A DNA stretch of 64,000 bases from Harmothoe impar. Its lineage: Eukaryota > Annelida > Polychaeta > Phyllodocida > Polynoidae. This document shows positions 1,163-63,732 of the stretch, piece by piece. The position numbers were made by a program, and so were the translations under genes. Within the stretch, counting starts at the first letter, position 1, and every line of letters begins with the position of its first letter. The stretch covers positions 42,812,933-42,876,932 of the forward strand of contig OX381709.1 in the NCBI GenBank assembly GCA_947462335.1. The letters run 5' to 3'. The notes under the pieces are model-generated. The model searched no databases, was not told where the DNA came from, and was given only the letters and a program-made list of their open reading frames with translations.

Positions 1163-1235
1163 GAGCAGCTCCCCCAGTAGACGCACAGAAGTAACTTGAT
1201 GAGCAGCTGTCTGTATACGAGCTGGTGAGCTGCTC
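1163..1235. promoter_or_regulatory. Cluster of GAGCWGCTC dyad sites
   Basis: GAGCAGCTC at 1163-1171, the one-base variant GAGCAGCTG at 1201-1209 and GAGCTGCTC at 1227-1235. The last is extended to TGAGCTGCTCA, a perfect odd palindrome. No transposon family covers the cluster. The function is inferred only from symmetry and over-representation. Confidence 0.4.
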
Positions 1236-1380
1236 AGCCATGTAGAACGCTGTATAGGGGAGTCACATCGTCAAGTCACACCTTCAGGCACCCTCAGCAC
1301 TATCAGGTAGCCAACTACTGATACTAGCTGCCAGGCTGTCGGAAGTCTATAAAGCAGACCTTGTCTCTACTCCCCGACTC

Positions 1381-1432
1381 ATGAGCAGCTCACGGCCTTA
1401 TACACCATGAGCAGCTCACGGCTTTATACACC
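1381..1432 (+). repeat. 26-bp tandem pair carrying the GAGCAGCTC motif
   Basis: Two adjacent 26-bp units (1381-1406 and 1407-1432) differ at one position. Each starts ATGAGCAGCTCACGG. This is the only place in the window where paired motif copies clearly arose by local duplication. Other pairs have unrelated flanks. Confidence 0.8.
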
Positions 1433-2560
1433 ATGATTGAACAGGAGGAATCCTGCGCCATTTTATCATTTATGACACAATCGGAGTATGAATTCAATGA
1501 AACATACTGGCATTTCCTATTGTTAGGGCCTTACTTGTATGCTATAATACGTACACTTGCACACTTATGGACTATCCATTCTTGGATATTTCTGACTTTT
1601 AATGTATGAGACTGCTACTGGGCATTGTCCGATAAATAGTGCATGTGCTAGTTATAATTCAAGGAAATGAGACGATTTATTTCCTTTGTGTCAATAGTGC
1701 TACATAGCAACAGTACAATATTATGACGAACGACCTTTAATTTGTAAGAACAGTTATATTGAATAAACGGAAACACATTGGAAAACAAATCGTATTATAA
1801 CTGTTTGCCCAGAGTCACTATTCCCCTATTGGTGGGTGTGTCTTGGCTGTGTTGAGGGTGGCTTTATTTCCTTTACGTGCGGCTAACACTGCTCAGTGTG
1901 TGAGCTATTTGAGACCTTGTATTTATGCATCTGTCTCCGCAGGTCGCATGGGGACCTGCCTGAGAAAAGTGCTCTATTTTCTAACCAAACTTTCAGTGGG
2001 TCAGCTTTTACCATTTTCGGACCACTGTTTTTGCATCGTCTGGCTCTGCATGCTACCGGTGAAAATACTGGGAAAACCCCTCCCCAACCCCCCATCCTCT
2101 CAATCCGCTCATATCAAGTACGTACGTATCACGCATTTAAAGGCGTTGGTGTGTTTTTTGCATGGAGTGCTGTCATAATAAAGGATGGCGGATGGCCACA
2201 CAATTAAAGTGCACAATATTAAAAGGTTTCCACAGTACAAAAGTTGAAGTGCTTTGTGTTATTGTGGAATGTGATGGATATTGCAAGGTCCAATTTCAGG
2301 TTCCCTATCGGACATCATTAAACTCCAGAATCCATTGTGAACAAAAGTATGTCATATATATTAGTCCTCATATCAGAACTAGAATCAAAGGCTTAATGGT
2401 CGATATGCATCTATAAAATGTTACACTATCTGCAAATCAATGTATGACTATAATAAATATAGATTTTGCATTACTCCTATGCATAATTTCAGAACCAACA
2501 CATGCAGCATCATTCAGATATAGTACGATACAAACTATCGTTAACCACTTAACATTCAGT
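1433..2560. other. Non-coding stretch, nothing recognised
   Basis: Short overlapping open frames occur at 1843-2207 in three frames. None has splice borders or a recognisable domain, so I do not call a gene. Confidence 0.4.
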
Positions 2561-2601
2561 GAGCAGCTCTAGTTGAATTGTATCAGAATTGGGAGCAGCT
2601 C
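2561..2601. promoter_or_regulatory. Paired GAGCAGCTC sites
   Basis: GAGCAGCTC at 2561-2569 and again at 2593-2601, in the same orientation with a 32-bp offset. The sequence between the copies is not duplicated, so the pair is not a simple tandem repeat. Confidence 0.4.
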
Positions 2602-3510
2602 TCAGAGTGAGTGAAATCACCGCCGCACATGTAGGGGTGGGGGATCCACCCAATTCCCTCAGAGACCATTTCAGCCTACCACTGGCCTTCTTCGCCAATG
2701 CCTTATCAATCTATCTACAGCGTAATGAATCTCAACTTGAGAATCTCAACCCATTTAGCTTATTCAGACATTGCCCCATGCTAGCCGGATGTGGAGTACC
2801 CCTGAGTGGCCCAGGGCTTTGTAATGGTTAATAAAAGTGACCAGAGAAGACTGGGGGACGCCCAGACCCAACCCTAGGGGATCCAGATCAGTTCTGACTA
2901 AACCAGGCCCAGGGTCACACTTTATTTCGACTTGAGGTTACATGCTACTATTGCTAGTCGTATAGCAGGACAATATTATTGAGAACAGACGAGAATAGCG
3001 GTATCTAAAATTCAAATATCTAAGATATCAGGCATCGAAGAATTCGCCATTTTTTAATCAAATCTTGTTTGTACAGATTTTCCACTTTAGTGTACACCAT
3101 TCCCTTCTGTACACCCTATATGTGGCTATAGTGCAATAAGTGATATAGATAGGTTTTCTAGGGAATTCCCCCTAATAAGGAATCCTGACCTCTATGGTGT
3201 GTCACCCTATCCGCGGCATCTACCATGACTCAATTTTGGAAATCAATGTCCAAGGCCTACTAGTATCTGTTACCAAACCAATCGGGTTATCAAAGTTATG
3301 TAAACTCTAGGGGACTGCAGTAATATTCTACGTAGTAGAAGTGCACTTCTTGAGGGAAATCAAGCTGTGCTAGCAGCTGGACAAAGAGATGATAAATTAT
3401 GGAGTTAAAATGATATCAAATGTTAAGAATGGAACAGAGCTGACATACACGTACACGGATTAATCCTTGAATTGTGCATGTTGAGAGAGTATGCTTCATC
3501 CTTACAGTAA
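2602..3510. other. Non-coding stretch, nothing recognised
   Basis: No repeat family, splice-bordered frame or structured RNA was recognised. Confidence 0.4.
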
Positions 3511-3660
3511 GGGAACATTCACAAATGACGTCACCTTATTTTGGGCCATTTTCAGGACCCCCCCCCCCACTCCCTTGTCACCTTTTGTCAATACCAGCAA
3601 TAACCCCCCTAAGAAAGACGTCACTAATTTTGAAGACCCCCCACCCTTCCCTCCGCTAGC
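3511..3660 (+). mobile_element. CRE-ended MITE, left-end fragment
   Basis: Starts GGGAACATTCACAAATGACG and continues TCACC, matching the left terminus of intact copies. A C run and a TTGTCA repeat follow as in other members. No right end follows directly; the next one is at 4703. Either this is a truncated copy, or a single element was opened by the insertions at 3669-3846 and 4237-4549. Confidence 0.6.
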
Positions 3661-3668
3661 AAACCCTC

Positions 3669-4589: not shown

Positions 4590-4703
4590 GAAAAGGTGAT
4601 GTCAAACAGACCTTGACACCCCCCACCCCCATGTCACTTCTTGTCACTAAACCCAAAGACCCACCCACCCCCTCGCAGGTGACGTCATTTGTGAACGTTC
4701 CCT
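4590..4703 (+). mobile_element. CRE-ended MITE, right-end fragment
   Basis: Ends GTCATTTGTGAACGTTCCC preceded by GGTGAC, giving a TGACGTCA core. The interior holds the family's 'cttgtcactaaacc' stretch. It could be the right half of the element beginning at 3511. Confidence 0.65.
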
Positions 4704-6067: not shown

Positions 6068-6096
6068 GAGCTGCTCAGGGAGGGCCCGAGCTGCTC
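6068..6096. promoter_or_regulatory. Paired GAGCTGCTC sites, 20 bp apart
   Basis: GAGCTGCTC at 6068-6076 and 6088-6096, separated by G/C-rich spacer. The same 20-bp offset recurs at 29608/29628, which suggests occupation of neighbouring helical turns. Functional meaning is inferred. Confidence 0.4.
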
Positions 6097-12092: not shown

Positions 12093-14967
12093 GAGCCATT
12101 CCGCCGTATATAGACAGATTTGAGGAACTTTCCCCGCATGACCCCCTCAGATCCTAATAATTTTCCACCTACATGAAGATGTATGTAGTTCATGACCACA
12201 TGCAAAATTGTAGCTTCCAACTCTCGCAACTTTCCGAGATTTTGGCCGCTGAACATGAGGGGGTTTGGCCCTCAGTTTGCAAAATCCCAATTTGGTGTCA
12301 TCTTCAAAGTGCAATATTTTCAAGGTGCAATGAGTTAGAGGTCTGGTATTGCTTCAGTTGTCTCACACATTCATACACTCTTGGGAAGTGCAAATATTGG
12401 GAGGTTTTGATTAAGCCTTATACTTGAACAATGAGCATAAAAGGTGGTAAGCTTTCCTGTTTGAACTGAAATTTGAAAAGGTTTGAAAATTCATAGCATC
12501 AAAACCGTTACTTTAAATACCCTAGAAATTTGGATTCCAAATGGCAATGAAGGTCTCAAATGAAAATCAAAGATGCAGTGTCTGCCATGATATGCAAATC
12601 CAATATGGCCGCCTCAAAAAGGGCAAAAATCGATTTTTGCCACTTTTCAATGCCCAATTTTGGTAGGAGGGATAAATAGTACCAGCTAATGCTCTTCACC
12701 AATCAAAAGGCCATTATGTGCCTTAAGTCTGATAGCAATATGGTATTGGTCCTATGTCTCCTTCTGGTGAAAATCAGGGGACGGAAAATGGTACAAATGG
12801 TATTTTCTGATGATTTGTATTTTTTATAATTCTCTTAGCAATAGTTAAATATACAAAATCAAAGCATAGTTTATATCAGGTGAAAGTAACTGATGCCCCC
12901 TAAATCATGGTACCAAACTTGTTTAAATGCTTTGGTTCTTTCCATTGAAAGAAACACTGTTAAATTGAGGAAAATACTGAAATAAGAGAAAAAATCCAGC
13001 ACACTCATGCTACTCCTATTTCTCAAACTTCTTTGGAGTAAAAAAGGGGTTATAAGACCATAACATGTTTGTTTTGGTAGGGAACAATGAAATATACCAT
13101 AAATATAATTTAGAACCTGGTTTGGTACATGAATTTGTGCATTTCGATTTGGCCAAGTCAGTTACAACATTCATCACATTAAGATGATTTGGGATTACCT
13201 GAGACAACTATTGTATTAAAAGGAATCAAAAGGTTGAGTACATCTAACCCTGAACAATCTTTCTCATCAAGTAAGCCCTTACAATGTGTTATAGACTATG
13301 TCAAGCAAATTTTGATTTCCATCAGGGTGGGAGCGGTTAAAGTGACATGATCTGATAATTGGCACTCAAAAATCAATCCTGTTAAAAAAAACCAAAATGT
13401 TCCATATGGCCATATTTAATGTACTACCTACTTCATTTAATCTCATTCAATATGATTCAGCTTAGAATTCAACCAACTATCAGATTTAGGCTCAATTAAA
13501 TACTTTTGGAGTGCACGCTATGATTGCACTCATTGAAAATACACTGTAAAGACTATACCTGCACCAATATGGGACATTCTATTTAAGGTATAATTTCCCA
13601 TAGAGGGCATTTTTAATGCACCCCATTCTTCAAATATGATAGTGTACTAACATTTGGAGCACATTTCAGTAGGAATTGAAATATGGGAAAAATCGGACCA
13701 TGCCACTATAAGGTTGTCGTCCACCATGACCCATTAGGATTGAGGATTTGATCTCCATACTAAGTACCTAAAGAAGCAGATACATGTTACCCAACTCCTA
13801 AGCTCTTTCATATTTATTCACTTTCAATAATGCCAAATCAGATACATGCAGTCTAAATACAATGCATTTGACATATAATATTATGCGTCATAGCCCCTGG
13901 CCAAATTGAAATCGAAGGGATTTGAGTACCAAACCGGGGTTTAGAGTAGCCTATATATGCATAGATGTATGCATAGAGATACCTTTCTGCTATATATAAC
14001 ATGTTGTTGTCCTCCTACTTTACACAAAATAAAGTTAAACTAAAGGATAAAGAGATTCATTTTTTTTTGCTTATTCTCTGGTTTTTTTCCTCATATTGAC
14101 ATATTTTATTTCAATGGAAAAAACCAAAGCACTGAAACAAGTTTGGTACCATGATTTAGGGGGCATCAGTTACTTTCACCTGATATAAACTATGCTTTGA
14201 TTTTGTATATTTAACTATTGCTAAGAGAATTATAAAAAATACAAATCATTGGAAAATACCATTTTTACCATTTTCCGTCCCCCGATTTTTACCAGAAGGA
14301 GACATAGGACCAATACCATATTGCTATCAGACTTAAGGCACATAATGGCCTTTTGATTGGTGAAGAGCATTAGCTGGTACTATTTATCCCTCCTACCAAA
14401 ATTGGGCATTGAAAAGTGGCAAAAATAGATTTTTGCCCTTTTTGAGGCGGCCATATTGGATTTGCATATCATGGCAGACACTGCATCTTTGATTTTCATG
14501 TTGAGACCTTCATTGCCATTTGGAATCCAAATTTCTAGGGCATTTAAAGTAACGGTTTTGATGCTATGAATTTTCAAACCTTTTCAAATTTCAGTTCAAA
14601 CAGGAAAGCTTACCACCTTTTATGCTCATTGTTCAAGTATAAGGCTTAATCAAAACCTCCCAATATTTGCACTTCCCAAGAGTGTATGAATGTGTGAGAC
14701 AACTGAAGCAATACCAGACCTCTAACTCACTGCATCTTGAAAATATTGCACTTTGAAGATGACACCAAATTGGGATTTTGCAAACTGAGGGCCAAACCCC
14801 CTCATGTTCAGTGGCCAAAATCTCGGAAAATTACGGGAGTAAGATGCTATAATCTTGCATGTGGTTATGAACTACATACATCTTCATGTAGGTGGAAAAT
14901 TATAAGGATCTGAGGGGGTCATGCGGGGACCACTTGTTGAAATACTGTGGAATGGCCCATTTATTAG
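12093..14967. mobile_element. Long inverted-repeat (foldback) element 1
   Basis: The left arm (about 12093-12990) and right arm (about 14070-14967) are inverted copies, roughly 97% identical over most of their length. Paired landmarks at 12132/14928 and 12945/14115 share one centre near 13530, so the arms differ by essentially no net indel. The ~1.1-kb middle (12990-14070) is AT-rich, not palindromic and has no credible transposase frame. The outermost ~40 bp of each arm are more diverged. Frames read in the arms appear on both strands as mirror images and are not genes. It may be a non-autonomous long-TIR transposon, or an inverted segmental duplication. Confidence 0.85.
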
Positions 14968-15954: not shown

Positions 15955-16210
15955 GGTGCAAATAGTAGTTATACATTATAGCCAATAATCTAGGATCCAT
16001 TTCTCTTCTCTTGTCGTCACAACAGTCAACAAATAACTCTGTAGGGGGTGTCTGCCTCTCTGGGGTCAAAAGGATACAGGGTCAAGCAAGCTTTGCTCTG
16101 TGAATAGCTTATATAAGTCCAAAACAAAGTGCATAATAAGGAATATAAATATGTATTCATGGACTACAGAGTCTATAACATATATTAAATATTAAGACAC
16201 TACGGCTTAC

Positions 16211-18341: not shown

Positions 18342-20319
18342 GTCGCCGCGTAGACGTATCAACTTGCCAAAGGCTGGCAAAATCAAATAACTGACGGCAA
18401 ATTGAGACTCATATCTCTGCGATGAGTGAGGACGTGAAATCCCATCATCATGAGAGGTGGCCGGGGTGTTTATCGATAGGGGATATGGTGGGAAGTGGCA
18501 GAAGGGGGGTAGGCAGGGTGGAGACATTGAGGGATGGAGAGTACACTGGTGACCTGAGCCAAATCCCCCTCCATACATACTACTTGTGTGATATTAGAGC
18601 AGCTCACAGAATACACAGGCGGCCCTAGAGAGGGATTGGCTGTCTCAGGGTTACTGAATATATACTGGTCAACTGTGCCACACTATCTATCAGTGTCTTC
18701 TGGATATTGAAATACAGCCAGCGGACACAGTCTCTTCTGTATTCAGATAAAAAGTAAATTGAAAGTACTTTTTTTTTCGTTTTTACCTATATAGTTATTG
18801 CATTCAACAAAGTTTAAGTTAGTAAGCCGTGCTCTGATGTACACAGATTGGGATACATGCATATATATATGACATTACATTAATTTTGATCTATGACCGG
18901 TATTTCAAATCTACCAAATCTACTTTGATTTGATAGCTGACAATATCCAAAATTGAAGCCAGCTAAGATAGTGAGTTGATTGAAGAGAGCCATGGATACA
19001 GATTTTTCGATTTTATACAAGTACTAAGCCTACTCTGACGCTATATTTATAATGCATACATATGGGCAAGTTGCTTGCAAAAAATAAGGGAAATGAAATG
19101 AGCTTTATTCATGGCTGCATCAAATGACTATAGACCATGTTTTAATGGGGCTTTCATAATCAGTTTGGAACTGATACGATCATATCTTCTTTTACACTGT
19201 ATCCTTTGTCACTGAAAGTATTTAATCCATCGTATCCCTTGTTAAAGAAATATTTGAATACAAGATTCAAAATTAGGTAGTATGTCCATAACGTTCTTGT
19301 ATTGTTAGGGATCCTTTCTGAAACGTAATAATCTTTCGGTATTTATGTCAGCTGATCCAAAGCCACGCAGAAAGACAGAAGACATTGTTCTTTTGGAAAT
19401 TGCATTAGTCTTTTTGTTGATCTGACTTTATAACCCCATGCCCTCAGTAAGCTCATATTACCTCACTTTTTTCTTTTTAAACACAAGAGCCACACCCACA
19501 AAAACATCCAAATCGGACCACAGGGAGGGAGGATCATTTGAGCGATAGGAAATGTGTGTTTTTAAAACTGTTCCCGACTCATAAAACACCCGGATCTAAA
19601 TGAAATATTTCTATCTGACAATAGCAGTTGGTATGGTGTAACCCACCCTAACCGTATCGGGGTAACTGATACCACCCCGCCTTAGATACTACACAATAAC
19701 TGGCCGATAAGCATGTACAGAGTTACACTGGGTTTCACGGCAGATAACACGGGGTGGCCGGCCGTGGAGACGACCAGACAATGAGAGGGGGTTATTGGCT
19801 CATCAATAATCCTGTCCACCCATCAAATCTAACCCCCCCCCCTCTCATCCTACACCCCCCCCCCCCCCCCCCCACACACACACACCTCCAACTCACCCCC
19901 ACCAGCCGGTCTGGTTACGGGGCATTGAGACATCAGGTCGGCGAGGGCTGCAGGACAAGTGGAAATGGGAACGGAGATCGGATACGGGGAGGGGTAAAAA
20001 TAGACACTATTAAATAGAGGGGCAAAAATAGGGCTGTGGATAAAGATCTACACTATGCTTAAAAATAGGTTCTACTTCTATGGACTTCGGCTGGCTCTAA
20101 CCGTTTGATAGAGCACGTGGTATCACGGGTACAGGGATAAAGGACTAAATGCCCATGATTTAATTAATGCATATACAAAAGTCTCCAAGCTGACATACTG
20201 GTACATTTGTACATGTAGGCGTATATCATACTGCAATCGGCGTAACATACAGGCCTTAATCTATCTATGCCATTGACTGTATTGAAATGTCCCACTAGGA
20301 AATATCCGCACCAATGTCC
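18342..20319. other. Non-coding; C tract and CA repeat
   Basis: One GAGCAGCTC site lies at 18597-18605. A C run of about 19 followed by a short CA repeat lies at 19852-19885. Otherwise AT-rich and unremarkable. Confidence 0.4.
19852..19885 (+). repeat. C-homopolymer plus (CA)n
   Basis: About 19 consecutive C followed by five to six CA units, preceded by a shorter C run at ~19830. Slippage-prone; on the minus strand it could form G-quadruplex structure. Confidence 0.8.
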
Positions 20320-20860
20320 CCCATCTGCTCACATTGCTCGCGGAGCAGCTCACAATATCTACCCTTTGTCTCTGACGTCACGTCACAAGTCTACGTCACG
20401 TGCCGCTTCCTCCGCGCATGTCCATCTGACATGCACAGCCGCACGTGTACCTCTAAAACCGACGACGCATGCGCAAACACAAAAGGGCATGTAAGGACGA
20501 GAGAACTTCCGTCCTTGTCACAAAAAACCTCAAAACCTGTGTTTGCCATCTCATTGCTTGCTGAGGCGCGACAGAACGCTAACGACGACTTGTGACAGCG
20601 TCCTCGCGTCTGCTTGGAGAGCGTGACGTGAGTATGTGCGTGGAGAGCATGACGTGTGTCGTTCAAAAGCATGACGGATCCTGACGACCACTTGACGACT
20701 TCGCTGGTTGTCGGCCACGTGTCTGGTGATTGACTATTGCGTCGCCGGAGACCAGCGCGGCGGTGTGCACAAAAAGCAGACGATTAAATCATCTCATTTA
20801 CGCGGGAAATCCGCAGTCGGCAGCGCACAGGGCCAAGTCAGGCAGAAATAAGTCTCTGTG
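20320..20860. promoter_or_regulatory. CpG-rich promoter-like region
   Basis: CpG density rises sharply against AT-rich flanks. Visible sites: GAGCAGCTC (20343), CRE TGACGTCA (20373-20380), three CACGTG E-boxes (20397, 20442, 20716), an NRF-1-type GCATGCGC (20467-20474), several TGACG half-CREs at 20624-20700 including a 26-bp-offset repeat of GAGAGCRTGACGTG, and an E2F-like GCGGGAAA (20802). These are typical of constitutive animal promoters. No start codon or first exon could be assigned. The patch is 4 kb upstream of the ankyrin exon on its strand, so that gene is the natural candidate. Confidence 0.5.
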
Positions 20861-21496
20861 ATTACACTCACGGCTGCAGCTGAGAAATCAGGGACAAACA
20901 ACCCTAATAATGGGAAAAACACGCCTTTCTGAATTCAGACACGCCTTTTCCCCTCAAAACTGCCTAGTCACGATAATGGGTTGAAAAGGAGTGTATTAAA
21001 GGAAATTTAAGGCCATGCGCGTGTTCTCAGCAAAAGACTGGTTGCAGTGGCCATATGTAATCCCTCCCTATAGTTTATTTCCTAACTCTCTGCTACCCTC
21101 TAAATAGTGTAGCATTCATGGATTCGTCCTCTAGTATAACTGGGCTGTATTAGGGTCTATATCGTACTCGTGAATACACCTTGAAGTCCCAATCGGGCTT
21201 CCAAGCCTATCCCTGAATACAAAACATACCCATTTGATGATACCTACAGCCCCAGAGGAGTAGAACCAGATGGCGTGTGTACATTTGACTCTATCTCAGT
21301 ATCCGTCGTTTCAGGAGCAGCTCACAGTTGGCTCTCTTATCGCTCTTATCGGCTCCCTCAAATCAATCATGAAGTGTAGCTGATAATGCTGGGCGGCGCT
21401 GATACACTGACAAGTAAATCCCATCCCCACCCCTCACTAAGTCGCCGTTCTGCTGGCTGCCTATCTACTACACCCTAGACACATACAAAGAGTCAC
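20861..21496. other. Non-coding flank of the CpG-rich region
   Basis: One GAGCAGCTC site at 21315-21323. Nothing else was recognised. Confidence 0.4.
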
Positions 21497-21928: not shown

Positions 21929-22669
21929 GGGAGAGTAGCTCCGTGTGAAGGAACTGCTCGGATGGATGGCGTGAGAGCTGCTCGTCTATTTCATTCATAG
22001 TGGATGTCCATTATAGAGCCCAGCCAAGTGGGTTCTGATTATCCCTTTTATCCCTGCACCTTTTCTGTATCAATCACCACATTAGCACCACTCTTCCCAC
22101 CACGCATCTACTACATTTTGTACACACCACCATCACAAACAGTTCATAGTCCAATACATTCTACACTATCTTTAATCTATAAAGTTAGCGCTAATATTTA
22201 TAGCTCTTCTATCCCAGGTAATAATCTGTCTTCTTTTTTCAAAGTCCTTTACTAGTCGTATCAAATACAAGAAGTGTATTAACCAAGTTTGGATCATTGC
22301 CGTTGCTCTAGACTGGCTTGTGTCACTGGGCTTCGCCCCCAGGGGTTTGATTCTCAATTGTAGAAACGTATATCATCAAAAATGTCCGCTTCTAGTCTTT
22401 ATTCTAATTTATCTATTATTCAAAATCAAAGACTTGGACAGGTCTACCATTGTCCCCAGATCCATAAAACAGTGAGGTCTAGTACGTGGCCTCTTCGTAA
22501 GGCAATGTGATTTAGTTTATCCTGAAAGAAACTGGTTTTAGATGTCTGCAGCTGGGTCCTGGGACAGGTAAGATCTGCCATTGGCAATGTGCATTTAGCT
22601 AACCCTGGAGTAGTTACTCAGGTGTGTCTAAGAAGACCAGTCAAACAGGCTTAGAGATCAGATAACATG
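21929..22669. other. Non-coding; one GAGCTGCTC site
   Basis: GAGCTGCTC at 21975-21983 with a degenerate AACTGCTC about 23 bp before it. Nothing else was recognised. Confidence 0.35.
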
Positions 22670-25629: not shown

Positions 25630-26238
25630 GGATATCCTGATTAGGTATCAGCAGCAGCTCTCTGAGAAGAACCTCTTGGAATAACTGAAAACGTCTGCAA
25701 ACCCCTTGTTATTATCAAGGCACGAGCTCACTCGCTTTTGAGTTTTAACATGTTATTTAATAATGTTTTTGTATACAAAATCTTAATAGTTCTTGTTTAC
25801 AAAAGGTGGACTTCCCTAGAAGAAGAAACTGACCTAACCCCTCCCTATAAAAGAATGAGACTGTGTTCAAATGGCAATTGCATGTATCTGCAGGGTGTTG
25901 GGAAGCAGGCAACGTGTTGGGGTAGGCTACTCAATCTTTGATTGTTTGCCTTAAGGGATCACCATCAGTGTGGGCGTCGTTCCGTGGTAAGAGTACTTTA
26001 GTGACAGCAAAACAACAAATATCCCTAATTGCCGGCCACTGGGTGCAACCCAAGGGTGCCACTGGCATCTCATCAACGTCCACACTAGGAACCACCTCCC
26101 AGGACAATGGTGGACAGCGATAAGGATCAGCCCCGTGCACCAGATGGCCGCACCATTCAGGGTCAGTCTTTTATCTCCAGATCCTCTCTAATCCAAGGCT
26201 GAACAATGCAGAGCTGCTCCTCAAAACCATGCTCACTA
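25630..26238. other. Non-coding; one GAGCTGCTC site
   Basis: GAGCTGCTC at 26211-26219, with the partial match CAGCAGCTC near 25650. Nothing else was recognised. Confidence 0.35.
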
Positions 26239-27359: not shown

Positions 27360-27540
27360 GCCAATAACCACAAAGCCCTAGACCACTACTTGGTAGACAG
27401 GGCGCGGAGGATAATATTTTCTGACCATGTTGTTGTGGTAGTAGGGGAAAGGCACCCCGTGCATACCAAGCACTGCCAGTCTGCCAGCTGTGTATAGGGA
27501 GAGGGGATTGGCAGCAAATAGAGCAACTCAATAAACTTAC

Positions 27541-28250: not shown

Positions 28251-28669
28251 AACGTTATCAGGGTTTATTCTGTTGGATCGTACCCTAGGGGTTGCCGATT
28301 ATTGACATCCAATATACGATATACCCGCGGTCCAAGTGCTGTTTCGTGTCGCAGGCCTTTGTCTGTATGGGTAGATGGAACGGCCAGCCACAGGGACTCG
28401 AGATAATCTTGGGACAATAGGTTTATATAGGGTCGGGAGCTGGAGCATAACATGGGGTCATATGAGCTGCTCACAGACTGACTAAAAGGCCAAACAGGGG
28501 TCAGTCTCATAAGAGATTACGCTTACATGGCATCGTAGAGGAATCTAGGCATCTGGACATTGCGATACACTATAGTGAAGGGAGTCTGTCGGGCGATAAG
28601 GGAGTGCAGATATATCTGATATGGCGCTGGTATGGTAACACTGTATGTGTTGAACATATTTTTCTACAG
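28251..28669. other. Non-coding; one GAGCTGCTC site
   Basis: TGAGCTGCTCA at 28463-28473 is a perfect 11-bp dyad. An 81-codon minus-strand frame (28265-28510) has no splice support. Confidence 0.35.
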
Positions 28670-29505: not shown

Positions 29506-30412
29506 AGGTGCACTTAGCCTTGACGCCTTAGGCTGCAGCATGCAGATCCAGGACCCAACCTTTAAACAAGCTGGACGGTGCGCCACTCTCACCAAACTAC
29601 TCATGGCGAGCTGCTCTGAGCATTTCCGAGCAGCTCCTCCGAGCGCCCATTACAGCAGGACAGGGACGGGCCCTTTCGCCGTAATCCCCGACGACTTGCC
29701 CTAATCCCCGGCCGGGGGGCAGGGGAGGAGGGCAGGGGGCAGGGGAGGTCTGGACTGCCTCACGCCACCCTCCATAATGATGTAGGGCCCTAGGCATCAG
29801 GGGCTTCACAGACTCACTAGCTGACAGGTTGGTCAACCCACTGAGCTCTTACAAGGGAGCAGTCAATAGTAACTTATGATTGGGTGTATTGGGGATAACA
29901 AATCTAATTTTAAAACGTTTGAACTAAAAAGTTCAAATGCATATATACATTTACAAGTATAGATCTATTAGGTTAAGGCGTTTAATGATTCAGCATCAAA
30001 TGAATGCTGTTGAAGAGACGCACATTCCTGAGCACTGTATCTAATGCGTCTGAAGGTGCTACATCATTAAACCCTTGCTAGCTAGTCCTCTGTTGAAGGT
30101 GACACACTCTGGTCAGAAATCTCTCCCCTCCCTCCGCCCCCACCACACCTTTGAAATCAACGGATTGTCATACCCTTGGGTCACACATGGCCGATATACG
30201 TTAACCCCCAACGCCATACGTGTTGGTATTGAATTCAAAACCACCATTTACTTGTCCAGTGTATGTAATCAAGGATTCCCACATTACATGCCACCCAGCT
30301 GTCCCCCGCCCGCATCCCAACCACCCCAAACTGAACGTGTTGCTTTCACCTTCATGCTGTGTCTGGTGTCCACCCCTGACAAGGTGATCAGTATCAAAGG
30401 GAACACTGCTCC
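29506..30412. other. Non-coding; GAGCTGCTC pair and TAATCCCC pair
   Basis: GAGCTGCTC at 29608-29616 and GAGCAGCTC at 29628-29636 lie 20 bp apart. About 50 bp further on, TAATCCCC occurs at 29682-29689 and 29702-29709 in a CpG-rich context. TAATCC is the binding core of Otx/bicoid-type homeodomains. The whole 29600-29740 stretch could be a compact regulatory element. Confidence 0.35.
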
Positions 30413-40145: not shown

Positions 40146-43100
40146 TGCGTCTACATGTTTTACCATGGAAACTGAATTGTTTCGGAGACAGCTCGACGCA
40201 CGGGCTGACCTTCACTTCTTTCTCTGTGAGGGGTTAAAACGTGGAGACTTGTTTACAACCATTTCTGATTATAACAAACTGAATGCTAGTTCCAAGGGGC
40301 ATGTTATAACAACGTTTCACTGAAATAATAGTGTCCTTTTCATGGCACGGGTTAAATTCATAAGAAAATGTATTTAATTCAATAGCTAAGATATATCTAT
40401 ACCTGCATTTATCAAATGTGCCATGCTATATGACAATATGAGAGTGGATTCTTTGACAAAAATATTAGGGGAGGTACCCTTCCTGTTTGGACTGTAACAT
40501 ACAGCTTGGCATGACTCAGGGTCAGGAGTACACGTTCTTAAGTGCTCTAACCCATTCCCACAGCATCATCATCTATAGCAGGAGGACTATCCCTAACACA
40601 TTTCCTCTTGTTTAGCCCCCCCCCCCCCTACTTCCTGTGCCTGGAGGATTATTGTCAGCTGTTATCTACGTAAAGACCCTTAAGGCTCTGGATCTGACTT
40701 CTTGTACTTTATCCACGTCATGCTGAGCAATTTCCTCTTTGATGGCAGTATAAAGAATGCCATATGGCTGCACTGAACAAACTATTATCAACATCTGGGG
40801 TTTCTATGGTAAACTATCCAGCTACCAATGGTAAACATGTATATACCACCAGGAAAGGAGTTTGACAGTGACCATGCAGGTTCCCTAGTCAAAGTTGACA
40901 CTGTAGGCTTACACTACCAAATGTATTTATAAACATTTAACTTACAGTCTCAGTATTGAAATATTGAACACTGTGCATTGCAAAAGCTACCCCCACACTT
41001 GCTGCCGTCATTTCATCCCAGACAGTTAGATAAAAACTACAAGGCAGAAGTGCTTAATCAAGTTACAACATAACAGGTGGAAATCACTCCCCTTTTTGCT
41101 GCCAGCAGAGCCTGCCATGCCAAAAAGGGCGGCTGAGTACAATCTAAATGATGCTGAATGGGCCATCGCCTGCCAGCCTATGTAGTTGCTGGGACGACTA
41201 GTTTTATTGGGTTGGATCTTCCTGGAGCCAAAAGGCTTGGAGAGTTGCTCAATGTGTTCCGCCTGAGTTGCTCTGATGGGCAGGCCACCTGGACGGCCAT
41301 TGGCCAGTAAGAAGAAGCGTCTCGTATCTATGGCAACAACCAGAAGCCAAGTTATCTGGCTGCTTTCCTGAATAGCACTGACGTGCAGGTGGTGTGGGGA
41401 TTGTTAGACTTTGAGCTATGCTCAGTGTACACCAAACAAAGCTCCAGTAGAGGATATAAAAATAGTTTTTTTTTAATATGGACACAGGGAGATATATAGA
41501 CCGTCTATTTTATGTGACTGATTTCAGAGTTGACTAAATGAATTTTAGGTATTGAAATGAAGCCATTTGTCGTTGAGTTGATTGATTTGATTCAGTTTTA
41601 CTCTTGCTGTCATGTTCCCAAACTGATACATGTTATCCTGCTGGTATATATGCTGGTATCTCTCTTCGAGGTGCGTAATATAATTTCAACAAAGATACCA
41701 GTGTTTCTGACTGAAATTATAGTTTGTAACACTCACAAGTATAGAAGCTAAGCCACATATGGTCGTATCTCACAAAATATAGTGAGACAGGACTAGGCCA
41801 GTTGGTGCATTCCCAGGGCAAAAAAACAAAGAGCTATAGGTAATGTTACTTCACATCCTTTCCACAGTGTAAGCGACTGCTCTTAGGTTTTTCCATCGCA
41901 GCTGTTCACTGATAATTCAGTTACATACTCAACACATTAATCTTAATTTGTTCTTTTTACTTAAGCACTTGCCCATACATTAATTAGTGGCATACCTCAG
42001 GATAAATCAGGTCTAGCGGCTGTTCCCATGGCCATTTCTTACGTAGTGAACATTTCTGTTATAACCATAATAATTCTATTACTAAAGGATGAAACTATGG
42101 CGAACTTGACTTTAATTTATTCGCTGGTAACACTAAAGCGTTGGGTCCGAAGTAAAAGTACTGTTGAAATAAATCCACTTTGTTGGAAAGCAATCCTAGG
42201 CAAATAACTTGGAACCCTCTCCCCATATCAGTCACGACTTGCATACACATACCATGCACATGAGATAATACTGATAGTGCTCCCATTAGGCTGATAATTA
42301 ACTACATTATGTACCTGGGATGATCTATAATAGGGATCAAAGATTGGGTACAATCTGGGGATCCAACAGGTCCACCTCACACGTGCTAGCCACTGATAGC
42401 AGATCATGGCCTGGATCTGTGGGGTACCTGGATTATTACTAACAAGGACAAAGGAGCTCTTAGCAAATCTGATCACTAATCTGGATATCCAGACAATCTT
42501 TGATCTTTAATCTACACCCAGGCACACTAGACTCACAAATCCTTCAGGCTTTGATACTAGGGATCATGTAACGTGTTATGGCAATACTTCATGATAGTTA
42601 AATAAATGATTTGTACATATAGGCTCTAGTGCATTATTCACTGTTCATCTCAGATACGTCTGTATATTAGCCTACATTGGGAATACATATCACAGATTTC
42701 CACTAGAGCAACAAATCAATTATTTATCGATAACGCATCACAATTACAACTGAGTGTACACCAGGGAGTCAGCACACTTCACACCTGAGGGGAGTCTATA
42801 ATAGTAATACATCTCTATTGATTCATTGCTGATTATCGATTGGAACACCTGAATTATCTGTTTTCGGTGCAGGCCGTTCAATAACCAGGCCAGTAGGGAA
42901 TACACTTCTATTCCACTAGTTACATATACTACAACTTCATAGGACTATATTCATCAATTCAGATTTGTGGGGATTCAACAAATTGAAATCCTATTAAGAC
43001 GATCTGAATGATCATTGATGAAGGTTACGATATGTTTGACTAAGGACCGTGGGCATCATTGGCTACAAATGGGACATCAGTTGAGAAGTGCGTAAAAATA

Positions 43101-44146: not shown

Positions 44147-44178
44147 GAGCTGCTCAGTGGCGGCATGGTGAGCTGCTC
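44147..44178. promoter_or_regulatory. Paired TGAGCTGCTCA sites
   Basis: GAGCTGCTC at 44147-44155 and 44170-44178, 23 bp apart. Both are extended to the full 11-bp dyad TGAGCTGCTCA. The spacer is unrelated to other pairs. Confidence 0.4.
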
Positions 44179-48511: not shown

Positions 48512-50356
48512 TTACTCTGTAGAGTGAGCAGCTCAGTTCATAGTTCTCCACCTGCTAACCCACAGGTTGATATAGGGCATGTACACTTCCTCCTGTGTAG
48601 ACCAGGTGGTGGTCTACACCTCTAGCCAACAACACACAGGTGCCAGGTGGGCGATCCACGTGACTCACCTCTACACTCTCTCTCCAATAAAAGGGCTATC
48701 TAAATAATCCAGATATAAAAGTACAATGTAACTGCCCGGTAGATACCTGAATAACAGCATCGACCATACTTTTTACCCCTGTGCTTGTTACATTTATTTG
48801 TACAGATTCTCAGTACTTACCAAATTCAGAATTATAAGTTCCTGATGGGACTACTAGTATATTATATATACGATAACCTAAGGCTATGGGGATTGGCATA
48901 TAAACACATGCATATCTCAAGTTGTTGGAAGAAACCCACCAAGCCACCTGTGTGAAAGGTCAGGGGTCAGGTGTAGTACTCAGACCTCCAGGTACATACA
49001 GGGGGCCTATGGCTAGGCAGGGGGCACGCTGGTGTTAGTACAAGGACCCCCTGAGGCCCTTATAACCAGCTGGGCACCAGGTGAGCAGGTTGTTCTAACT
49101 CGCCAGCTCACAGCTGCTCCCTATAGCGGAAAACCTCCAGTTAATGTCATTGTCCTATAGGCTTGAAGGTTGGGTGTAACATGAACTAATAGACCCCAAG
49201 CCAGTAATGAGCATTGGTGTAAGATCTGGAAAGGGTAATGTAGTCCAGTTGGGTCCGGTTCTCTCAGGTCGTGTAAATTTTAGCTGCATTGGACTCTCTC
49301 TGCCCTGGGTCTACATAATCCAGATTGACAGCACTCACATGCTTCCCCTTGTCAGCAGTGTCCAAACTTACAAAGATAAACAGCCTAATCTGAAAGCTTT
49401 CAACTGTCAATCATATGGATATCAGATATGTATACTTCTGATATGAAAGCTGAGCTGTCACTCAGTCTCTGCTGATAAATTATCTGTTGGAAATTCGACA
49501 AAAATGGGGGAGAAATACACTGATGAACCCTACAGCAGCACACCAAAAATGCTATGATATCCAGTGATAGAAAGATGCAAAATGTGGACATCACAAGGCA
49601 AAATCTTCCCTACCCTTCAAACAGCATTTCTTCTGTAGCCATCTCGGTGATTGATGATAGGCGAAGTGGCAGGGATATCTGAGGCAGTAGCAGTGGGAGC
49701 TGGACAGACTGCCCATGGCCCCTGGACACAAGTAATCACATGGCCCCAACCAGGCAGCAGTAGTACTAATCCTCCATGTCTCAAGGCCCTTAAGGCTCAG
49801 TATGGTAATCCTACAGCTACCACCCCTAGGTCATCATCTTGGACGAGCAGCTCCAACTAGTATGAGCTACTCACAACCTCCATAAACTCCTGTAATGGGG
49901 AGAACACCAAAAGTGGCTGGCCAGTGCTTGTATCACTATTGGAGTTTCAGCTAAGCCTGCTTGGGGGAAGTTCCAATGGTGTTGTTGGCAGGAGCCGGGT
50001 GGGTGAAATGCCTCTACACCCCAGGACAAGGGCATCACAAGTGAGGGTCTAAAAGTAGGGGTCCGGGAGGCATTGGGTGGCGCTGGGGACGGGGCAATGT
50101 AATAGATAGTCAGATGTGAGGAGATGGAGCGTCAAGAGGAGGAGACACAGATCCTGGCAAAGGGTCGGGGGAGTTAGCATATATATTGACGCGGACCAGC
50201 GCTCTGGGCGCCCCCCAAAGTAGCCAGCGAACAAACTGTATATAACTGTACTCCTACAGACTATTATATATAAATCCCGATATATACAGAAGCCACCATT
50301 CTCTTTTGCTTTGGTTTCCTTCCAGCCCCCCACACCACCCTTGATCATCATCACAG
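48512..50356. other. Non-coding; two GAGCAGCTC-type sites
   Basis: GAGCAGCTC at 48536-48544 and 49845-49853. The latter is followed by GAGCTACTC 18 bp on. A 69-codon frame (49651-49860) ends at the second site and has no convincing splice borders. Confidence 0.35.
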
Positions 50357-50491
50357 GCTTTTGGTATGAGGGAGAGTCTTGGTGAAACAAAAGCCGGGAC
50401 AAGTATTGACCAGGGGGACGAGCTGTTCCGGGAGCTGCTCACGGCCAGACTCACGTCGCCGCCCGAGCAGCTCCGTGCCGCCACAGGCTGA
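50357..50491 (+). CDS. Candidate coding block ending in TGA
   Basis: It starts after a C/T-rich acceptor (TTCCTTCCAGCCCCCCACAC ... CATCATCACAG). Forty-four codons then run to TGA: AFGMRESLGETKAGTS, then DQGDELFRELLTARLTS, ending LRAATG. The ATG at the fourth codon could be a start. The composition is charged and amphipathic. Two GAGCWGCTC motifs lie inside (50432 encoding ELL, 50465 encoding EQL), and the variant GAGCTGTTC is just before (50420). All three plus-strand frames are open here because the DNA is GC-rich, which weakens the case. No domain was recognised. If genuine it is a terminal exon or a very small protein. Confidence 0.25.
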   Translation, partial: AFGMRESLGETKAGTSIDQGDELFRELLTARLTSPPEQLRAATG

Positions 50492-57020: not shown

Positions 57021-58064
57021 AACCCTATCTGTTAGGCACTTCTTGGAATCTATTGCGTATATTATATACACTGATTAACTTCGGTTCGTGGTTTGTTTTT
57101 TCTTAAATCAAATTTTCTTTACATAAGATGTTAATTAATATGTTCTTAACAATCATAAAGATGAGAGTACATCTCGATCAGCGCTTTATCTACAAATGTA
57201 TTTAACATTTTAAAACATGCATAAAACACAATAATATGATATTTTACTCTCTTTTGAATTTAGATATAGGCCTGTGTTTATGCAATATTGGTATGGGTAA
57301 GAATACGATAATGCTCATCAACCATACAAGGGAGCAGCTCACAACCTGGACTCAGAAATCGATGGCAGCCATGTCCACCTTCTCCCACACCTTCCTCAAA
57401 ACTACCACTTCACTTGAGACCAAAGTGAGCAAAAAAAAAGACATCGGAAAACTGCCTTCGGCTAAAATACCCGCCGCCATTGCTGTCAAACTCATGCTAT
57501 TGGTATAATTTGACGTCCAGTGTGGGAGTAGGTACTGGAGGTAATGATGGGTGGCAAAAAGGTGTGGGAGTGTGGAGTATAGAGTGCTCAATATGGGAGT
57601 GTGGCGGGCTAGGTCGGCACTGTGGTGGGTAAGTGGGACCTAGTCTGGTGTGGAGGTGTGTGGAGCACCAGTGTACAGGGTAGGCCCAGCTTTACCAGCG
57701 GAAGCCTTAGGGCTCACACCGGAAATGGGGTCTGGCCTGTAATTTCCCAAATAGCATAGTATGCAGCGGACCTACTGTTCAAACTATATAGATCTATAGT
57801 GTGCAGTGTTTGTATAGGAAGGCATCTGTCCTTTTTCTCCCTAATCCATGGGTTTCCCACCAGCCTTTCTCCCAAATTCAAATCCTGGAAATCCTGACTG
57901 TACGTGTAATAATCAATCGGGCGATATAACTAGGGGCAACGTTTTTTTTTCTTTCACAAATACATGTATACTCAAAATACCATATAGAATAAACTGTCAT
58001 TTTCCCCCATTTTTTGGAAGGTGTGCCCCTATGCTACCCTTGCTGTGTGCACTACTTGACACAG
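57021..58064. other. Non-coding; one GAGCAGCTC site
   Basis: GAGCAGCTC at 57332-57340 begins a 56-codon open block (to 57508) with a possible GTGAGC donor inside. Both strands read protein-like, so no call is made. Confidence 0.3.
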
Positions 58065-58268: not shown

Positions 58269-59776
58269 ATTACAGCCAGACTACCCGAGCTCAGTTCTAT
58301 TAATACCTGTAGCCCATAATCCATAGCATCAGCTTTGATGTTTATTTTTATTAGTATTAAATATGATATGCCTGCCATTTTATCTAAGGGTCTCTCATTT
58401 AGTTTCTTCGGTCTTCTTAAACTTTAGGCCAAACCTGTATCCAGTTCTAGAGTTTTGCCGGTATCTATTGCAACCCCTCAATTACTTTCCTTTTATCTGT
58501 CACTAATATATACTCTATGATGTAACGTCCATATAAAATAGTACCACGAATTTGGAGAGGGATATAGTAAAAAGTTTGGGGAAAACATCAATTTAAAACC
58601 AGGCAGTATTCTGTTCAGACTATTTCAGACTTCTTAAGACCACAAGGATCCAAACTTCCAGAGGCCATGAGGTATAGTGACCCTGCACAGATCCAGGTAC
58701 TCTACTCATGGAGGTCACACCTTATCTGACCTTGTGGTAAGCACCTACTAAAAATAGCACCATGCACGAGCAACTCATGGATGATGAGTGCTCTTGACGT
58801 GCGGGAGGCCTCTAGGTGATACTGGAGGACTTGTAAATATGGCTTGTTTTAAATTGAAATGCAGTGGACCACACTGCCGGCTAGCGCTACTAGCTAGCAG
58901 GAGGAATTCGGGGCAGGCAGACTGATTGGGGGGTACACGTCGTATACTCTAGGGACTAGCCGGGCAGGAGGAGTTCTGGCTTAGTAGAAGGTGTGGAGGG
59001 AGGAGGGGAGCGGCTTAGGGCTCTGACGTGGGGTAAGGTGTGGGAATTGACGAGAGATCAGGGTTGGAATGGAAAGGGGTATGGAGGGAGTAGATATGTT
59101 AGGACCACAATGATGAATATGGCTGCAGACATTTATCAATTGGATGATTTTTTTTAATGGGAAAAGAAAAAACGGTAATTTTTCAGTATGCATATTAAAG
59201 AATAATCAATGTACTGACAAAACACACAAATCCTACGAACACCTTGTGGAGAAAATAATCCTTTACATAGCCATGTGAAATTGCATGATCAGGTAAGAAA
59301 CTCAAGTAAATTACTCTTACACCAGAGCACTAAAAAATGCTATCTTATTTTTGCATTTGCTGAGAAGGGTGTATTGAGGGGAAGGTAATTGAATCAGACT
59401 GGTTAGAGACGAGAGACGGGGGTGGAAGCCAAGGGGGTTCACCCCCTCTTCCAGTGCCGCACGTGCAAGCCTTGCCTTGTACCTGCCCCCCAGGTATGTC
59501 TGGTATGTCAGGCATCAAGTGGGCTTTACTAAAGCTAAGTGCAGACCCTTCTAACTACCAAGGGCTGGGAAGGGGTTTAGTCTGTTCTGAGCAAGTTACA
59601 TGAGCTGCTCAGTCTCACACAGACAACCCTAAGTTACTGACCCTGACATAGAGCTATAGGACCGGACAATGTGGTAGACAAGATATGTCCTTATTGCTTC
59701 AATGCATGCAGTAAACCTCCTCACCAATGCTAGACATTGCCAGAGTTACGGTTTGTAGTTCATGGATGACATTAAA
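58269..59776. other. Non-coding stretch; one GAGCTGCTC site
   Basis: TGAGCTGCTCA at 59601-59611 is a full 11-bp dyad. Nothing else was recognised. Confidence 0.35.
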
Positions 59777-60181: not shown

Positions 60182-60694
60182 TAATATAATCAATAAACAG
60201 CTACAGGCATGGGAATTATACCACTTGTCAGTGATTGATTAATGGTACTTTGACATAACTAACATGAACTAGGAAATGATTAATAGATGTTCCTAAGTAG
60301 TTCCTGTGTGGATTCCAATACCAACAATAAACTGTGGGTTTATAATATTCATCAGGCCTACTATATTTCAGTAACCCAATTTGATTCGTCAGCTTGAAAT
60401 CCCTGGCATAGTCGCCTCCTGGTGAGTAGCTCAGCCTGTCAGCACCTATCTACTCACGGAGCAGCTCAGTGGTAGTAAAGGACGACATGTTGGCAATAAA
60501 CCATAATTGAATTCTCCTTATTTCAACACAAGCTGGACAAGCCATTCCGGACCCCCCAGGGCATGTTTAACCACTTAGTATTACGGCTGTCACGACTGAA
60601 CCCACCATCACGGTGGTCTAAGGGGATGGTTGTGATCAGCCACGCGGAAAGGGTGCTCAGCGCGCACCCCCCTTTCTGTGTAACTGCTCACATA
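60182..60694. other. Non-coding; GAGCAGCTC pair
   Basis: GAGTAGCTC (variant) at 60424-60432 and GAGCAGCTC at 60459-60467, 35 bp apart, both followed by A. Nothing else was recognised. Confidence 0.35.
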
Positions 60695-61399: not shown

Positions 61400-61509
61400 T
61401 ACATTCAATCTCCAAGCAGTGCTCAGCGATCTATGCTCAACGATCTATGCTGTATATCTGATGGCTTTAAACCTCTGCTGCACCAGAGCCCCAATACAAC
61501 TCCATGTGT

Positions 61510-61640
61510 GGCCATGTGACCCGTCTACGACGTCTCTGACGTCACATGTTGCGATTACAGCGCCATTAGCGGCGACGTTTACTGGCGGCATCCCCGCGCG
61601 GATCCCCAGGTATGCCGTCCAACTGGCGGGCGGTGAGAGC
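61510..61640. promoter_or_regulatory. Small CpG-rich patch with CRE
   Basis: CpG-rich: CRE TGACGTCA at about 61538, GCGCCATTAGCGGCGACG, and GCGCGGATCCCCAG followed by GTATGC, a donor-like border. It could be a short promoter plus first exon on the plus strand, but no start codon is convincing. Confidence 0.3.
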
Positions 61641-61818
61641 TTTATCGGTCTACACCACGGCTTACAGGGAGTGGCTCCAATGTCCTCATTGGATAGTTTA
61701 TTGCTTTAAACAAGTGAACACTTTTTTTTTCCAAATGAAAAAGGAATGGATACTTGATTCCAAATGTTTACACATAGATATTGAAAACTCAATCTCATGT
61801 GACAATATTTTGCACCCT

Positions 61819-61901
61819 CAGAAAAGTGAGCGTCACTGTCGCCAAAAGCACTCTCACCTGAAAGTCAGGCACTGCCTGGCTTTCATGTGAGAGTGCTTTT
61901 G
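61819..61901. ncRNA. Hairpin related to 45262-45360
   Basis: CAGAAAAGTGAGCGTCACTG then GTCGC corresponds to the outer left arm of the first hairpin. The inner stem (61843-61901) pairs CAAAAGCACTCTCAC with GTGAGAGTGCTTTTG around the shared TCAGGCACT. The outer right arm is missing, so the full stem is truncated. Two stem mismatches. Confidence 0.35.
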
Positions 61902-61905
61902 TATG

Positions 61906-63732
61906 AACACAGATAGATGACAATGTATAGAAAGAGTCATGATAAAAGGAATGATCATATCACTTTATCATGTACCTCTGTAAACCATTATGGACTAGTA
62001 TGTTGAAGCCTCCTATGGGTCAATGGGATCAGGCCATGAACCTCCTCCAGCAGGGACCTCCAGCCCTGGAGGCAATCCATCCCCCCCCCCCCCGAGCCTG
62101 TGGCTAGTTACTGGAGTGAATCCAACAGCCACAGACAAGTTGAGGCAATCCTCTTCTTGTGAGTGGCAGCCACTGATCCCAGCTTGTCAGATTACGTCCA
62201 GTCTCCTAATGGTATCGAGCTGCTCCCTAACATCCCACTGAGAGATGGGAACTACTCGCTGACATCAGGTTGAGCTATAGATGAGCTTCTCGGTCAGATT
62301 CACCTTATATTGAGTCTGGACGCTCATTGAAGGAATTTATAATTGGTTGGATGCCATAGGTTTCCATCCCGTTTTACTTTTCATACATTTCATACTTTTA
62401 AAGTATGGTGTGTCGTTAGAACAATTAAGATGGTATCTAGAAGCCAGTAAAAAGGTAAGGGAGTGAATTGCTTTGATTGAAATGTATTTTAAATTCAAGA
62501 TATCAAGTCTATAAATCGTAAGGGTTCACTGAGGGAGTCCTCTGATATATGTTTAATTAACTTTTTAGTTTTCAATAGTGAGTGTGACGTCCCTTGAGCT
62601 ATAGCATTACGTATACACGAAAACCCAATTATAAGTCTTAAGGGCATACTTATAGACTATAGTCGTGAGAAGTTTGCCAATGTGGGTGATAAATATTTTA
62701 GTAGTGAGGCTTAATCCCGACATCTCTGAGGTAATTGGGCACAATATAGAGTCGCTGCCGTTAGAGTTATACAGGATCCCAGACACCGACAGCCTCCTAT
62801 AGCGTTGATATACGGAGCTATTATTCCACATAATTGAAACATACCCAGCGTATAACGGCTTTCTGGATAACTCATGAATGGCATCGGTTCTCAAAGCTCC
62901 ACACCCCTCCTCAGCCTCGCTATAGTCTATTCATATTTGCAAGAAAAGGGGAAATCGGCCCCAGGATGAAGATTCCCTGACGAGCTGAGCAACTCAGAGC
63001 ATCTCTTTCAGACTAGGTTATTCTCATGGACTCACCGCTAGGTTATCATTGGGAGAAGGGTTCAGACAGGCCAGTAAAATGAGCAAACAGTTCTCCTCCC
63101 AACCTTGCCCACCGCCATCTCTCTACAATCATATTGCAATTAATCTGCTGGGAACTGGAGTGGGGTATAGGGGGCGCCACTGAATGCTGCAACCGTCCCA
63201 GCAGCCCCCGCGGCCGGTAATTGGCCCTGCTATCGGCGTCTGCTCGTAGCGCCACCCTGTGGGGGAAAACAGCCAGCGGGCAAGTACCATACAGATAGGG
63301 GTTACTCTTGGACGAGGCATTGTTAGCGTTAGCATAAGTGATAGATTACTATCTCTTCCTCCCTGTTGGTGCTACAGCATCGGCCATCTGTGCCCCCCTA
63401 GGCACTGAAATCCAATACCAACTCTTATATTTCTATGAGTTATTTTCTAGAGTCTTCACTTCAAGAAGGCCATGGTATTATCTGAGAAAATAAATTGCAA
63501 AGACATTGACGATTTCCTTCCAATCCTTCACCGATTTAGCGACTTAGGTATCTAAGGTGATAAAACATTGATGCCATACGGTTGATTATATGAGATGGTA
63601 TCTGCAAGAAGTATCACACTATGATGGTTGATGGTTGGTGACAGTCATAAAGAACATTTGGGACAGTATAAGGCTGGTATCTAATGTATACGAGATAGCA
63701 GTGCTAGATAGAGTAGGGGTATAGGAGACAGT
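61906..63732. other. Non-coding; C tract and degenerate GAGCTGCTC series
   Basis: A C run of ~14 lies at about 62081. GAGCTGCTC at 62217-62225 is followed by the degenerate copies GAACTACTC (~62250) and GAGCTTCTC (~62284) at 33-34 bp steps. A CpG-rich patch at 63110-63260 has open minus-strand frames without splice support. Confidence 0.35.

Follow-up and report, generated by a model that had tools for sequence, protein, structure and literature searches.

Phased groups of the dyad GAGCWGCTC in the genome of the scale worm Harmothoe impar as candidate sites of a dimeric DNA-binding protein

Introduction

In Drosophila, BEAF-32 uses clusters of short half-sites, with CGATA as the half-site, and the response element of the p53 family is RRRCWWGYYY. 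In ctenophores, the C2H2-finger proteins CTEP1 and CTEP2 are found on a GC-rich motif with two CpG at loop anchors, as described in the examined part of PMC12221973. Here we describe the word GAGCWGCTC, two four-base halves around one A or T (W), which occurs 26 times in 64,000 bases of chromosome 6 of Harmothoe impar (contig OX381709.1, positions 42,812,933 to 42,876,932; hereafter, the window). The published assembly, wpHarImpa5.1, has 1,512.3 Mb in 861 scaffolds according to the examined part of PMC10541532, and the genome searched here comprised 1,511,831,793 bases in 736 contigs.

GAGCWGCTC shares with BEAF-32 sites the grouping of short half-sites in several arrangements, but is dominated by a fixed dyad with a one-base spacer. 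It shares with p53 elements the RRRC/GYYY quarter-sites around W, but has a single W, and a p53-family element was rejected, because the two-base spacer had 1 copy in the window against 26 for the one-base spacer. Like HIP1 of cyanobacteria, DNA uptake sequences and Chi, it is an exact, short, dispersed word whose distant near-matches are mostly background; unlike them, it belongs to an animal genome of 1.5 Gb, where its copies are clustered and their spacing is phased. We take it to be unlike the CTCF consensus. It resembles the CTEP1/2 motif in abundance, lineage specificity and an unfamiliar protein (putative for GAGCWGCTC). The CTEP1/2 loop motif was nevertheless rejected as an explanation, because it needs two CpG and GAGCWGCTC has none; its symmetry is unstated in the examined part of PMC12221973.

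GAGCWGCTC was not found in the literature, as far as the titles and beginnings of abstracts of the papers listed go, which does not show its absence from print, and the matches to its letters look like primers, antibody or gene sequences. It is not given in the examined parts of an annelid paper (PMC9977687). Another paper, PMC11371463, mentions H. impar, and the word "motif" is nowhere in its main text. From the results below, groups of GAGCWGCTC are probably the sites of a putative dimeric DNA-binding protein, arranged on one face of the helix within regulatory or architectural elements.

Results and Discussion

Abundance and sharpness of GAGCWGCTC

All 26 exact copies (cores) claimed by a sequence-only reading of the window were present, with A at the centre of 14, T at the centre of 12, and C or G at none. 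The chance level was 0.16 on average (maximum 2) in 100 dinucleotide shuffles and 0.43 in 30 third-order Markov sequences, which makes the previous expectation of 0.3-0.5 copies a fair one. The start positions given in that reading were exact for 25 of the 26 cores; the one placed at 48536 starts at 48526. The one-base spacer was specific: GAGC-N-GCTC was found 26 times, while every other spacer from 0 to 11 bases gave at most 2 copies. The overlapping halves, GAGCTC, occurred 7 times. A general excess of palindromes was rejected, because the arms of the runner-up 9-base odd palindrome had only 8 copies against 26. Extended hairpins were rejected as well, because palindromic arms were longer by at least 2 bases only at 44147 and 44170. 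The flank symmetry at the remaining cores was near expectation, except at offset 3 (13 versus 6.3).

On the forward strand, A follows 16 of the 26 cores, as had been noted, and T before or A after the core was found at 26 of 52 symmetrised positions. The idea that many copies reach TGAGCWGCTCA was fair, but the extension is not general, the full 11-mer being present at 8 of the 26 cores.

Genome-wide, GAGCWGCTC has 92,667 copies, or 1 per 16.3 kb, and TGAGCWGCTCA has 14,298. As the control, we used the word with swapped halves, GCTCWGAGC, which has identical letters, is likewise palindromic and is free of CpG. It has 10,500 copies, so that the core is far above its control, with an excess of about nine-fold, and about nine-tenths of the copies exceed the control count. 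The reversed word (2,458 copies) was not used as the yardstick, because it contains CpG. To our knowledge, a transcription-factor word of about 9 bases rarely exceeds chance by much in a gigabase genome, where chance copies swamp the working ones.

The window, with 1 core per 2.5 kb, is 6.6-fold richer than the genome. A further 47 cores were found in its surroundings (20 stretches of 10 kb between 42.40 and 43.29 Mb), and 2 in 16 stretches of 2 kb elsewhere in the genome. The window and the flanking stretches make up a 264-kb set with 73 cores, and the whole sample covers 296 kb with 75 cores. In the 264-kb set, the 73 exact copies compare with 1.8 expected, and 66 one-mismatch copies with 46 expected (means of five Markov sequences). 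Most of the one-mismatch excess came from sites with T in place of C at base 4 (19 versus 2.6), followed by those with C in place of G at base 3 (7 versus 2.8). The centre was W in 73 sites and S (C or G) in 2 (0.4 expected for S), and the symmetrised frequency of T before or A after the core was 0.46. Cores were also sampled genome-wide as those followed by 20 bases and CAAATG. The 38 places obtained were on 16 large contigs (C1-C8, C10, C11, C13, C15 and C18-C21) and two small ones, and at 3 of the 38, CAAATG falls in a dispersed repeat.

Origin of the copies

The flanks of the cores are mostly unique. When the core was masked, a repeated flank was found at 1 of the 75 cores in the 296-kb sample, as compared with 42 of 300 random places. 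The 75 masked flanks share nothing longer than 24 bp, and the matches between them at 15-24 bp numbered 13, at E up to 0.01. The flanks of 36 of the 38 sampled places were distinct. The sequence-only reading had placed the copies outside miniature inverted-repeat transposable elements (MITEs) and in unrelated flanks; in agreement with this, the 12% of the window made up of sequence with further copies inside the window contains no core. An origin from an interspersed repeat or MITE was rejected for want of shared flanking sequence.

Tandem arrays make up 5.5% of the 296-kb sample, and cores are not concentrated in them (4 of 75, with 4.2 expected), which led us to reject a minisatellite core as the origin. 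Core-bearing arrays with differing units do exist elsewhere (L042-L046, C1:2177971-2179599 and C1:4092414-4092783), although choosing places by the core biases the sample toward such arrays. Shared minisatellite cores are known in mammals, of which the GAGCWGCTC minisatellites are reminiscent. A descent of the cores from an interspersed or tandem repeat family in which they were once embedded would agree with the core-carrying units of about 172-175 bp (L044 and L045) and with the 22,176 pairs of W-centred cores 10-40 bp apart genome-wide, many of them in minisatellites of differing units. This explanation is largely refuted already by the flanks described above, and by the spacers between neighbouring cores given below, and is highly improbable.

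Clustering and the surroundings of the cores

Six pairs of cores at most 40 bp apart were found in the window, one of which is a tandem duplicate, against 0.41 expected. Up to 100 bp from a core, one-mismatch sites numbered 27, as compared with 1.4 from their density beyond 300 bp, an expectation uncorrected for base composition. Half-sites were 2-3.5 times denser within 50 bp of cores, and a half-site was present in 15 of the 36 distinct 20-bp flanks of the genome-wide sample (3.2 expected). The half-sites within 60 bp of cores look like degenerate whole sites, with T at +7 at 0.48 versus 0.27 and C at +8 at 0.39 versus 0.23. The GC content was 0.50-0.52 up to 100 bp from a core and 0.43-0.45 at distances above 150 bp, and the observed/expected ratio of CpG was 0.59 at 5-15 bp versus 0.38-0.52 further out. 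Together with the phasing described below, close exact sites in unique DNA and weak sites beside strong ones are the properties of a homotypic cluster of transcription-factor sites.

A molecular drive, in which biased gene conversion or repair favours the exact 9-mer, for example by protection from breaks, would produce copies that need no function. The raised GC around cores, the presence of the core in many different minisatellites, and the background level of one-mismatch variants far from cores, apart from the variant with T for C at base 4, are in line with such a process. However, tandem arrays are not enriched in cores, and neither the surplus of weak sites near strong ones nor the phased spacing of unrelated pairs is expected from it. 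We consider a drive quite improbable.

Helical phasing of neighbouring cores

Core-core distances in a small local set were phased (p 0.004), and the 59 local distances pooled gave p about 0.002. Since this test was post hoc, spacing was counted genome-wide. The pairs counted had an A-centred core first and a T-centred one after it, with distances taken from start to start. Simple tandem arrays cannot produce this combination, which is why it was selected; repeat units with two cores still can, and do so in the class of 25-29 bp. There were 105 pairs at 13-17 bp (21 per bp), 758 at 18-24 bp (108 per bp), 244 at 25-29 bp (49 per bp) and 624 at 30-34 bp (125 per bp). For the two last classes, which are equally wide, the difference between 244 and 624 corresponds to p of about 4e-39 under independence of the pairs. 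The spacers were distinct in 47 of 50 listed pairs at 13-17 bp, 50 of 50 at 18-24 bp and 50 of 50 at 30-34 bp; two of those listed at 18-24 bp are reverse complements of each other. Pairs of the reversed word were 0 in all four classes, a control of little information as this word contains CpG. On the contig C1, up to 67.5 Mb, the dip at 13-17 bp was clear (p 2e-5). These results firmly indicate that the spacing of 13-17 bp is avoided. The second dip, at 25-29 bp, is supported by the genome totals and is marginal on this part of C1 alone.

The spacing of two or three turns suggests that neighbouring dimers would share a face of the helix and could bind cooperatively. Alternatively, the rhythm of 10-11 bp could mark the outward-facing side of nucleosomal DNA instead of contact between dimers, since spacings near 21 and 31 bp would likewise be favoured. 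This explanation, which we regard as unlikely, would alter the mechanism and leave the binding-site reading standing.

A putative dimeric protein

A one-base dyad with a W centre, one tolerated transition, weak sites beside strong ones, unique DNA of raised GC, and phasing are together what a cooperative dimer would leave, and are not expected from repeat copying or drive. From the excess, its sharpness, the clustering in unique DNA and the spacing preference, we infer a protein, its dimeric state, its cooperativity, and elements that regulate or organise genes. In this model, the recognition site would be GAGCWGCTC, with TGAGCWGCTCA as the preferred extension and C to T tolerated at the fourth base. 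The putative protein would be an abundant, sequence-specific dimer, each subunit of which may contact TGAGC. A working group would consist of at least one strong site with weaker sites within about 50-100 bp, with a preference for about two or three turns of the helix between centres. Such groups would lie within elements of about 200 bp, raised in GC and mostly of unique sequence, which may act as gene-regulatory or architectural elements. The proposal in the sequence-only reading of a symmetric site used genome-wide by a dimer is thus well supported by the spacer, the W centre, the nine-fold excess, the weak sites and the phasing, while its suggestion of a recombination site, at which no direct test was aimed, gained no support, cores not being concentrated in tandem arrays.

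Several observations weigh against this model. Words with two mismatches were also raised within 100 bp of cores (39 versus 15.4, by the same comparison), and base composition may therefore account for part of the excess of weak sites, for which the one-mismatch expectation is uncorrected. Two other small local sets of distances were unphased (p 0.50 and 0.33). The phasing counts cover the classes from 13 to 34 bp. Among the 50 listed pairs at 25-29 bp, 16 are array copies, and a few listed pairs are parts of core triplets and hence dependent. On C1 to 67.5 Mb, the stretch common to the lists of all four classes, the classes without array copies had 1.8, 7.1, 4.8 and 8.6 pairs per bp, and the dip at 25-29 bp was marginal (p 0.03 versus 30-34 bp and 0.13 versus 18-24 bp). 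No core was found in two 5-kb stretches beside two Hox genes (0.6 expected from the genome mean), which weighs against a simple developmental-gene story. In a six-frame scan, one ankyrin exon was the sole Pfam match in the 64-kb window.

A narrower form of the dimer model is that of an architectural or insulator site, whose protein chiefly serves to anchor loops or the borders of domains, the role of CTCF in vertebrates and of CTEP1/2 in ctenophores. The very large number of sites, the clusters aligned on one face, the higher CpG ratio close to cores and the spread of the 38 sampled places over 16 large contigs agree with it, and lineage-specific architectural motifs occur in other animals (PMC12221973, examined part). 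Nevertheless, a symmetric site would provide no orientation rule, and strong local clustering is, as general knowledge, equally typical of enhancers. An insulator is possible but doubtful. Equally tentative is a broader proposal for scale worms, in which the putative dimer would occupy, in face-aligned arrays on a CpG-free palindrome, a surplus of about 80,000 sites over the control count. It would be the principal architectural or pioneer factor of these worms and would not depend on the CTCF site.

With about nine-tenths of the copies in excess and a spacing that follows the helix, tens of thousands of candidate elements can be mapped from sequence alone. The motif is a ready bait for its putative binding protein, and it makes testable the idea that a lineage-specific factor organises or regulates the genomes of some annelids. 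The form of the site for a probe is TGAGCAGCTCA.

Chromosome distribution and gene context

The 50 listed of the 105 pairs at 13-17 bp, from C1 to C6:64.8 Mb, are all at 0.14-0.78 of the chromosome length, and 70 of 78 homeobox exons are at 0.13-0.79, bounds that were set after seeing the pairs. The listed pairs and the homeobox exons favour one shared central band of the chromosomes, which counts in favour of the dimer model. The listed 25-29 bp pairs outside arrays on C1 range from 15.5 to 109.4 Mb (0.12-0.88), and over the first 8.4 Mb of C1 the density of GCTCWGAGC stays close to the mean for this word (50 places listed). Ten homeobox exons on one strand at C21:42.80-44.11 Mb (1.3 Mb of a 65-Mb chromosome) presumably represent the Hox cluster. 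The Pfam search of two of the 20 flanking stretches (L006 and L010) gave a weak Lamprin match only, and the window yielded no match in scans for Rfam families and tRNAs.

Positions of sites and other features

The sites in the window are listed in Table 1.

Table 1. Cores, variant sites and the ankyrin exon in the window
Feature	Sequence	Position	Strand	Remark
Core	GAGCAGCTC	1163..1171	.	exact match
One-mismatch site	GAGCAGCTG	1201..1209	.	core 26 bp away
Core	GAGCTGCTC	1227..1235	.	exact match
Core	GAGCAGCTC	1383..1391	.	26-bp tandem duplicate with 1409
Core	GAGCAGCTC	1409..1417	.	exact match; duplicate partner of 1383
Core	GAGCAGCTC	2561..2569	.	paired with 2593, 32 bp
Core	GAGCAGCTC	2593..2601	.	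exact match; partner of 2561
Core	GAGCTGCTC	6068..6076	.	paired with 6088, 20 bp
Core	GAGCTGCTC	6088..6096	.	exact match; partner of 6068
Core	GAGCAGCTC	18597..18605	.	exact match
Core	GAGCAGCTC	20343..20351	.	exact match
Core	GAGCAGCTC	21315..21323	.	exact match
Variant site	GAGTAGCTC	21933..21941	.	core 42 bp away
One-mismatch site	GAACTGCTC	21951..21959	.	core 24 bp away
Core	GAGCTGCTC	21975..21983	.	exact match
Core	GAGCTGCTC	26211..26219	.	exact match
Variant site	GAGCAACTC	27521..27529	.	isolated
Core	GAGCTGCTC	28464..28472	.	exact match
Core	GAGCTGCTC	29608..29616	.	paired with 29628, 20 bp; half-sites around
Core	GAGCAGCTC	29628..29636	.	exact match; partner of 29608
Variant site	GAGTTGCTC	41242..41250	.	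paired with 41265, 23 bp; without exact core nearby
Variant site	GAGTTGCTC	41265..41273	.	partner of 41242
Core	GAGCTGCTC	44147..44155	.	inside 17-bp palindrome; paired with 44170, 23 bp
Core	GAGCTGCTC	44170..44178	.	inside 19-bp palindrome; partner of 44147
Core	GAGCAGCTC	48526..48534	.	sole core with flank recurring in 296-kb sample
Core	GAGCAGCTC	49845..49853	.	exact match
Variant site	GAGCTACTC	49864..49872	.	core 19 bp away
One-mismatch site	GAGCTGTTC	50420..50428	.	core 12 bp away
Core	GAGCTGCTC	50432..50440	.	paired with 50465, 33 bp
Core	GAGCAGCTC	50465..50473	.	exact match; partner of 50432
Core	GAGCAGCTC	57332..57340	.	exact match
Variant site	GAGCAACTC	58768..58776	.	isolated
Core	GAGCTGCTC	59602..59610	.	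exact match
Variant site	GAGTAGCTC	60424..60432	.	core 35 bp away
Core	GAGCAGCTC	60459..60467	.	exact match
Core	GAGCTGCTC	62217..62225	.	exact match
One-mismatch site	GAGCTTCTC	62283..62291	.	core 66 bp away
Variant site	GAGCAACTC	62987..62995	.	isolated
Single ankyrin-repeat exon		16203-16340	-	Pfam; splice-like borders

The window also contains several repeats. Two large inverted repeats at 12131-14929 and 33982-37051 have arms of about 0.8 kb that are 92-98% complementary, the innermost ones being separated by 1.1 and 1.5 kb, and are located in core-free gaps; they are perhaps DNA transposons. A dispersed element around GTGACGTCATTTGTGAACGTTCC, often near C-rich stretches, was found at 4660, 25585, 46772, 51147, 53622, 56583 and 59776. 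An exact scan for a dispersed repeat of the window gave no match on viral contigs. A palindromic repeat family with CAGCCCTGGCGAGT and CATGATGCATG is present at 18130, 21740, 22669, 23445, 26313, 28011, 29283 and 44857, and its copy at 28011-28251 bears two GAGTWACTC. Runs of C or G of 8-19 bases were found 17 times between 874 and 62093; those of at least 10 bases number 15 in the window, as compared with 1 run of A and 0 of T.

In the assembly, the mitochondrial contig C736 (15,367 bases) has the order nad3-S-nad2-cox1-N-cox2-D-Y-cox3, in which the protein names and the fit to annelids are as we assume them. A second mitochondrial-type COX1 was found on C466 (L050, 21441 bases); we take it to be bivalve-like, and it is perhaps a contamination from prey.

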